NCBI RefSeq assembly: GCF_025231485.1
Contig: NZ_CP104003.1
Coordinates: 806,001-870,000 of the forward strand
Direction: 5' to 3'
Length of the DNA stretch: 64,000 bases
DNA from: Salinirubellus salinus
Lineage (GTDB): Archaea > Halobacteriota > Halobacteria > Halobacteriales > Haloarculaceae
Within the stretch, counting starts at the first letter, position 1, and each line of letters begins with the position of its first letter. The position numbers and the translations under genes were made by a program. Shown piece after piece: positions 36,218 through 36,630 of the stretch. Below the pieces are notes generated by a model. The model was given only the letters and a program-made list of their open reading frames with translations, searched no databases and was not told where the DNA came from.

Positions 36218-36523
36218 ATGACCACGTGGCGACTGTTCGCAAACCTCGCCGAGGCCGCCGACACCCGAGAGGTGCAGGTGCCGGCCGGTCCCGGTGACAC
36301 GTTCCGCGACGCGCTCGACCAGTTGCTCGAGGCCCACCCCGACCTCGCCGACCTGATACTCGACGAGGACGGCGACATCCACGACCACATCCGCGTCCTG
36401 CGCAACGACAGCAACCCGTTTGTCAGCGACGACGGGTTCGAGACCGTCCTCGAGGAGGGCGACGAACTGGCGCTGTTCCCGCCCGTCAGCGGCGGCTGCC
36501 TCGCCTCGGCCTCGGACGAGTAG
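36218..36523 (+). CDS. SAMP1-like ubiquitin-fold modifier with masked diglycine
   Basis: 101 residues. The MoaD/ubiquitin-like beta-grasp resembles haloarchaeal SAMP1: opening MTTWRLFANLAEAADTREV, middle IHDHIRVLRND, end DELALFPPVSGG. In SAMP1 the diglycine is the C-terminus, which E1 UbaA adenylates. Here G92-G93 are followed by eight residues, CLASASDE, so it cannot be activated without processing. The codon right after the Gly pair is TGC, one base from TGA. The gene stands alone between photolyase and a GNAT gene. Confidence 0.85.
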   Translation: MTTWRLFANLAEAADTREVQVPAGPGDTFRDALDQLLEAHPDLADLILDEDGDIHDHIRVLRNDSNPFVSDDGFETVLEEGDELALFPPVSGGCLASASDE

Positions 36524-36630
36524 ACGACGGGCGCCGAGGCCGGACGGACAGCAGTGCCCCGCGGTGCCGAGCGCAGCGGCTGGGTCCATCCTTCCCGACT
36601 GCACGGGGGAGGGACGAGCGTCCGGGCCGT

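Follow-up and report, generated by a model that had tools for sequence, protein, structure and literature searches.

The window is a 64,000-nucleotide stretch of the Salinirubellus salinus genome (contig NZ_CP104003.1, positions 806,001 to 870,000, forward strand). At positions 36218–36523, on the plus strand, it carries an ORF that begins with ATG and encodes a 101-residue ortholog of the modifier SAMP1. The protein ends in ELALFPPVSGG-CLASASDE, followed by a TAG stop codon at 36521–36523. The diglycine pair, residues 92 and 93 (36491–36496), closes the VSGG motif, which is invariant in SAMP1 alignments, and is the presumed point of cleavage and activation. The eight residues after the pair, CLASASDE, encoded by bp 36497–36520, form a C-terminal cap. 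An earlier, sequence-only reading of the window had described a ubiquitin-fold, SAMP1-like protein in which VSGG is followed by CLASASDE, with a TGC codon, one base from TGA, directly after the Gly pair (36497–36499). The description is correct to the base, and the TGC codon is indeed there. Since the diglycine is not free in the translated product, we call the encoded protein a SAMP1 ortholog in capped-precursor form and not ready SAMP1. A 9-nt perfect inverted repeat, CGGCCTCGG / CCGAGGCCG, with arms at 36507–36515 and 36534–36542 and assigned to neither strand, spans the end of the cap and the stop codon. An overlap of the tail with a downstream gene was rejected; the next plausible ORF lies on the opposite strand, from 36631.

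The window protein scores 115.8 bits against the NCBIfam SAMP1 equivalog NF041918, for which the cut-off is 60, and it matches Pfam ThiS (3.5e-11) and the Haloferax SAMP1 structures 2l83 (2.1e-19) and 3po0 (3.6e-19). The alignments to these structures span the core, which is well conserved, as far as the GG pair. An AlphaFold model built with 21 sequences (mean pLDDT 74.4, pTM 0.60) has the ubiquitin-like order of elements; the match to the solved structures and the model agree on a β-grasp fold, with VSGG closing the domain. The end of the protein is probably flexible, since residues 91–101 are modelled with pLDDT below 50. The gene lies at 0.84 Mb of the first of two contigs (G000:C1) in a genome that is 100% complete.

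A census of the window's family (f1), assembled by homology search with no motif requirement, covered 146 genomes, with S. salinus as the sole representative of its genus. SAMP1 was found in 132 at E ≤ 1e-12, and each gene was read; a partial match without GG (G137) was excluded, leaving 131 readable genes. In 112 of these a stop codon directly follows GG, and in 19 there is a tail. Natronomonas (g16) accounts for most of the tails, with 16 of its 20 genomes tailed, as follows: SGVSQTLV, DGGVAQRPV, SRK, AR, CRR, AR, RR, GR, CGAG, CEAG, GR, KVQ, SSVAQRPV, RR, RRR, and AR. The others are CLASASDE in S. salinus, a single S in G052, and RR in G077. VSGG is intact in all 19 tailed genes, with no decay of the motif. 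Fifteen of the 19 tails have four residues or fewer, versus 16 of the 112 untailed genes with a second in-frame stop within four codons (Fisher 3.5e-8); the tails in this family are more than chance.

The sequence-only reading had called for a comparison with the SAMP1 tails of close relatives. In the nearest genera, all four Haloglomus (g6) and both Halorarius (g9) genes stop directly after GG. A relative carrying this tail in a different role would have told against that reading; none was seen. The tails of relatives are unrelated in sequence, and a single ancestral conserved tail was therefore rejected. The same reading had offered two alternatives, loss of a stop codon or maturation of a precursor by a protease of the desampylase type. 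The comparative data favour both together, but the specific change from TGA to TGC cannot be demonstrated, since the stop codons of the nearest relatives are TAG, TAA or TGA. Taken alone, the eight-residue tail of the window is compatible with a single simple stop loss and, being longer and without Arg, could be a recent one.

A desampylase gene, jamm1, lies on the minus strand at 3.22 Mb of G000:C1 (L172:2900–3328). Its product scores 171.8 bits against NF041370, the equivalog of the Haloferax desampylase HvJAMM1 (cut-off 130). It retains the HxHPx7Sx2D signature in the form HSHPx7Sx2D (HSHPRGPARPSGVD), and upstream of it EEVCGVL, whose Glu we take to be the upstream Glu of the JAMM motif. 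The gene for UbaA, an E1 of the ThiF family (PF00899, 8.5e-84), occupies G000:C1 3218626–3219336. The two genes are convergent, lying tail-to-tail with an overlap of about 10 bases (L172:2037–3328; G000:C1 about 3218536–3219827). The flanking sequence retrieved for 22 JAMM1 loci includes UbaA in 13 cases, and that for six loci of the other JAMM class in none. About 2.4 Mb separates jamm1 from the SAMP1 gene, and the two share no operon.

A search with Pfam PF14464 separated two classes of JAMM protein, a strong one (best E below 1e-15) present in some genera and a weak one, and the weak-scoring class is what remains in family genomes that lack JAMM1. The weak-class protein of S. salinus matches A. 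fulgidus AfJAMM (AfJAMM/JAMM2 class). AfJAMM has been grouped with HvJAMM2, and in the portion of the report available the class is described as inactive on its own (PMC4895103). Elsewhere in the S. salinus genome, one long frame (L199:1276–3066, plus strand; G000:C2 about 64798–66015) joins a JAB-like domain, with HTHP...S..D, to a ThiF domain, and as judged from its sequence encodes a fused JAB-E1 protein.

Across the haloarchaea, capped SAMP1 orthologs with short, unrelated tails after GG occur in 60 genomes from 22 genera and eight families, including Natronomonas, Halorientalis (g11) and many Halorubrum, and 45 of the 60 tails are one to four residues long. In a public species collection, whose matching records supply the names given here for the genus codes, 30 of 80 loci are tailed, 15 of them from Halorubrum; the tailed species include Natronomonas gomsonensis, Halorientalis marina, Halalkalicoccus paucihalophilus, Haloplanus ruber and Halopenitus malekzadehii. 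Outside the family, tails were sought with two DNA patterns that combine FPPVxGG with most non-stop codons, and the matches were filtered with the SAMP1 profile, those with a profile score below 12 or an upstream frame of fewer than 30 codons being dropped. A match in G367, which lacks JAMM1, was dropped as a chance hit; the true SAMP1 of that genome was read as untailed. Because the patterns require FPPVxGG, conservation of the motif outside f1 is partly by construction. The patterns yielded 41 tailed genes, every one in a host with JAMM1, and this count is a lower bound because the patterns do not reach tails whose first codon is TCR, TTR or TGG. A further 206 genomes outside the family have JAMM1 but yielded no tail; among 80 of them checked for a stop immediately after GG, 68 have one.

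Among the 57 tails no longer than 14 residues, Arg is the last residue in 36, and most tails begin with Ser, Ala or Arg. Arg-ended tails are the majority in 11 of the 22 genera (binomial 1.5e-4, with 15.3% as the downstream background). This figure is not claimed as proof of selection at the protein level: inheritance inflates the counts, and in Halorubrum an inverted repeat is involved. At many Halorubrum loci, the Arg codon of the tail and the TAG stop lie inside this DNA repeat, although Halorubrum genes without it retain Arg too. The repeat, GACCGATAGATCGGTC-like and conserved, lies just 3′ of the SAMP1 GG and is followed by CGTTTCAAACG at L344, L345, L349, L357, L361, L371, L375, L385 and other loci. 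The arrangement suggests that a DNA-level element overlaps the end of samp1 in Halorubrum.

The distribution of tails follows that of JAMM1. In the family, 18 of 53 genomes with JAMM1 are tailed versus one of 78 without it (Fisher 1.5e-7; this test and the two below treat related genomes as independent). The exception, G134, is an 82% complete genome whose Natronomonas congeners have JAMM1, and it is the only tailed genome without a match to this protease family, whose activity and specificity for GG are established. A genome can have JAMM1 and no tail, as do 35 of the 53, those of the nearest genera included. The order-wide draw comprised 392 genomes, with NF041370 above its cut-off in 273. 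Outside the family, 247 of 299 genomes have JAMM1 (E below 1e-15, with G286 and G311 weaker than the others), and 52 lack it, 42 having no match and 10 a weak one (among the latter G306, at 2.2e-14). SAMP1 was matched in 50 of these 52, and 49 end exactly in GG and a stop. The fiftieth match, from the 59% complete genome G160 (58 bits, VAGG and a long extension), was judged a paralog and left out. Thus, at least 41 of 247 genomes with JAMM1 are tailed outside the family versus none of the 49 read without it (Fisher 4.7e-4). Counted by genus, tails occur in 22 of 72 with JAMM1 versus none of 24 without (Fisher 0.0013). Two genera, g60 and g90, include genomes with and without JAMM1; in each, the tailed species has JAMM1 and the congeners without it are untailed. 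Taken together, the sequence comparisons favour repeated gain of tails, nearly always in genomes with an HvJAMM1-type desampylase.

Since caps are found almost only alongside the gene for a protease that cuts after GG, SAMP1 in these lineages is probably made as a precursor and then trimmed. We propose, with a probability of roughly 0.7, that capped pro-SAMP1 is trimmed by JAMM1 before UbaA activates it. The steps would be as follows. The samp1 gene would encode a pro-SAMP1 in which CLASASDE covers the C-terminal diglycine; JAMM1, encoded beside UbaA elsewhere in the genome, would take off the cap exactly after GG; UbaA would then adenylate the freed glycine; and the activated SAMP1 would pass sulfur to MoaE for molybdopterin synthesis and be conjugated to lysines. 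The beginning and end of this chain rest on sequence and on work in Haloferax; that JAMM1 cuts CLASASDE, and that the cut is needed, we infer. In the text available of PMC4443979, HvJAMM1 is described as cutting a linear SAMP1-MoaE fusion exactly after GG, in vitro and in vivo. The in vivo cleavage depended on jamm1 and was absent when GG was deleted, and a SAMP1 fusion supported DMSO respiration only with jamm1 (PMC4443979). The same source gives as established that UbaA and MoaE chemically require a free C-terminal Gly. As to the origin of the caps, a desampylase that already cuts after the SAMP1 GG would make loss of the stop codon harmless, so caps could arise repeatedly, and once capped, SAMP1 would depend on JAMM1 for its function.

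It is tempting to extend the proposal: JAMM1 would double as the maturation protease of pro-SAMP1, tolerated stop losses would lock lineages into JAMM1 as by a ratchet in eight families, and the short, often Arg-ended caps would have been selected as a gate that controls activation of the modifier, not left by random read-through. This extended version is possible but doubtful.

A cap might instead be removed by some other peptidase, a carboxypeptidase, a general protease or JAMM2, with the link to JAMM1 being indirect. A carboxypeptidase that prefers basic residues would suit the many Arg-ended caps, and S. salinus has a JAMM2-class protein. However, genes of the weak JAMM class are also present in tailless lineages and therefore do not explain the distribution of tails, the class is the one reported as inactive alone, and the Arg of the Halorubrum tails, coded with the stop inside an inverted repeat, may be a DNA-level effect. 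We consider removal by another peptidase improbable.

Slightly less probable still is that the association of tails with JAMM1 reflects shared ancestry, with tails neutral or tolerated in clades that keep JAMM1 and capped SAMP1 either working or dispensable untrimmed. The SAMP1 trees are poorly resolved, a strict independent-pairs test on a tree of 221 rows has only three supported pairs and no statistical power, and 16 of the 19 family cases come from the single genus Natronomonas. Against this, the best tree, itself weakly supported, requires at least 18 changes of tail state, and tails are spread over 22 genera in eight families while none of the 24 genera without JAMM1 has one. The requirement of UbaA and MoaE for a free glycine also argues against a capped protein that works untrimmed, and VSGG is not decaying in the tailed genes of the family.

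It is very unlikely that SAMP1 of S. salinus was disabled by stop loss and that its role as sulfur carrier passed to another ubiquitin-fold protein. Three further proteins of this fold are encoded in the genome (L002, L003 and L194), but all three lack a free C-terminal GG, and SAMP1 itself keeps a well-conserved core and an intact VSGG. No uncapped SAMP1-like substitute was found among the ubiquitin-fold proteins of S. salinus, a search that covered SAMP1-like and not SAMP2-type proteins. A sequencing or assembly error, with TGA as the true codon at 36497–36499, would need one base in a species represented by a single assembly, but it is scarcely credible and was set aside, because caps recur in 60 genomes, those of G126 and G127 likewise starting with TGC, and the S. 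salinus genome is complete.

Capped bacterial sulfur carriers with a JAMM protease are exemplified by QbsE with QbsD, and CysO/Mec+ and HcyS/HcyD are further capped or JAMM-processed carriers. The window SAMP1 has the ubiquitin fold and the GG with a short extension that are found in carriers of the QbsE and PtmS2 kind. PtmS2 (GG-MV) and PtmS3 (GG-C) are likewise bacterial ubiquitin-fold proteins with GG and a few residues, in genomes with a JAMM protease, and capped bacterial carriers typically need a protease, as the portion of PMC6006322 available describes. The protease gene is clustered with the gene for the bacterial PtmS2, whereas in S. salinus the capped protein is a general modifier and sulfur carrier, and jamm1 adjoins the UbaA gene rather than that of the carrier. 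Within the archaea, the likeness is to Caldiarchaeum subterraneum, in which the JAMM proteases CsRpn11 and CsJAMM process the precursors of ubiquitin and SAMP: nine residues that follow GG are removed from CsUb-pre, and CsJAMM cleaves CsSAMP precursors (PMC6043591). That lineage is distant and the work on it describes single precursors, whereas the haloarchaeal caps have been gained and altered repeatedly in a single order. Ubiquitin and SUMO precursors of eukaryotes, and bacterial BilA with BilC, also have C-terminal residues removed to expose GG, although eukaryotes use other proteases and BilA is a two-domain, ISG15-like protein, according to the part of PMC11354881 at hand. A comparative study of 2010, as far as its text was available, describes archaeal ubiquitin-like proteins as having a C-terminal GG and as seldom associated with Jab genes (PMC2948915). 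Capped carriers and ubiquitin precursors are thus already known. In the open-licence literature, a scope outside which most subscription papers fall, we found no report of a naturally capped haloarchaeal SAMP1, of its recurrent use, or of its link to JAMM1.

Most work on SAMP1 comes from Haloferax volcanii, whose gene encodes the ready form and which tolerates deletion of jamm1. The modifier, E1 and desampylase of that species (SAMP1, UbaA, HvJAMM1) are orthologous to the S. salinus set, but its SAMP1 gene already ends in GG and the fusion that is cleaved there is man-made, whereas the S. salinus gene is naturally capped. If the proposal of trimming by JAMM1 is true, the desampylase would be needed before any modification can occur in Natronomonas, many Halorubrum, Halalkalicoccus and others, and it follows that jamm1 should be essential for growth that depends on the molybdenum cofactor in the tailed genera. 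Capped SAMP1 would then be a natural, repeated evolutionary experiment on the mutual dependence of ubiquitin-type precursors and their proteases, one that can be tested in a genetically tractable archaeon.

The remaining ubiquitin-fold proteins of S. salinus end in other ways. L002 (L002:1150–1839, minus strand; G000:C1 about 2214100), which scores 98.2 bits against NF041918, has a MoaD/SAMP1-like domain and, after its VAGG, another domain about 130 residues long; as judged from the sequence, this natural internal GG might also be cut by JAMM1. L003 (L003:1477–1770, plus strand; G000:C1:1593994–1594272) is a SAMP1-like paralog at 49.4 bits, below the cut-off of 60, and ends in TKGGC, with a single Cys as its cap, as in bacterial PtmS3. 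L194 (L194:1483–1884, minus strand; G000:C1 about 2533562–2533834), of the ThiS type, ends in YPFMYCC and resembles the CC-ended arCOG00539 family of Halobacteria mentioned in the available text of PMC2948915.
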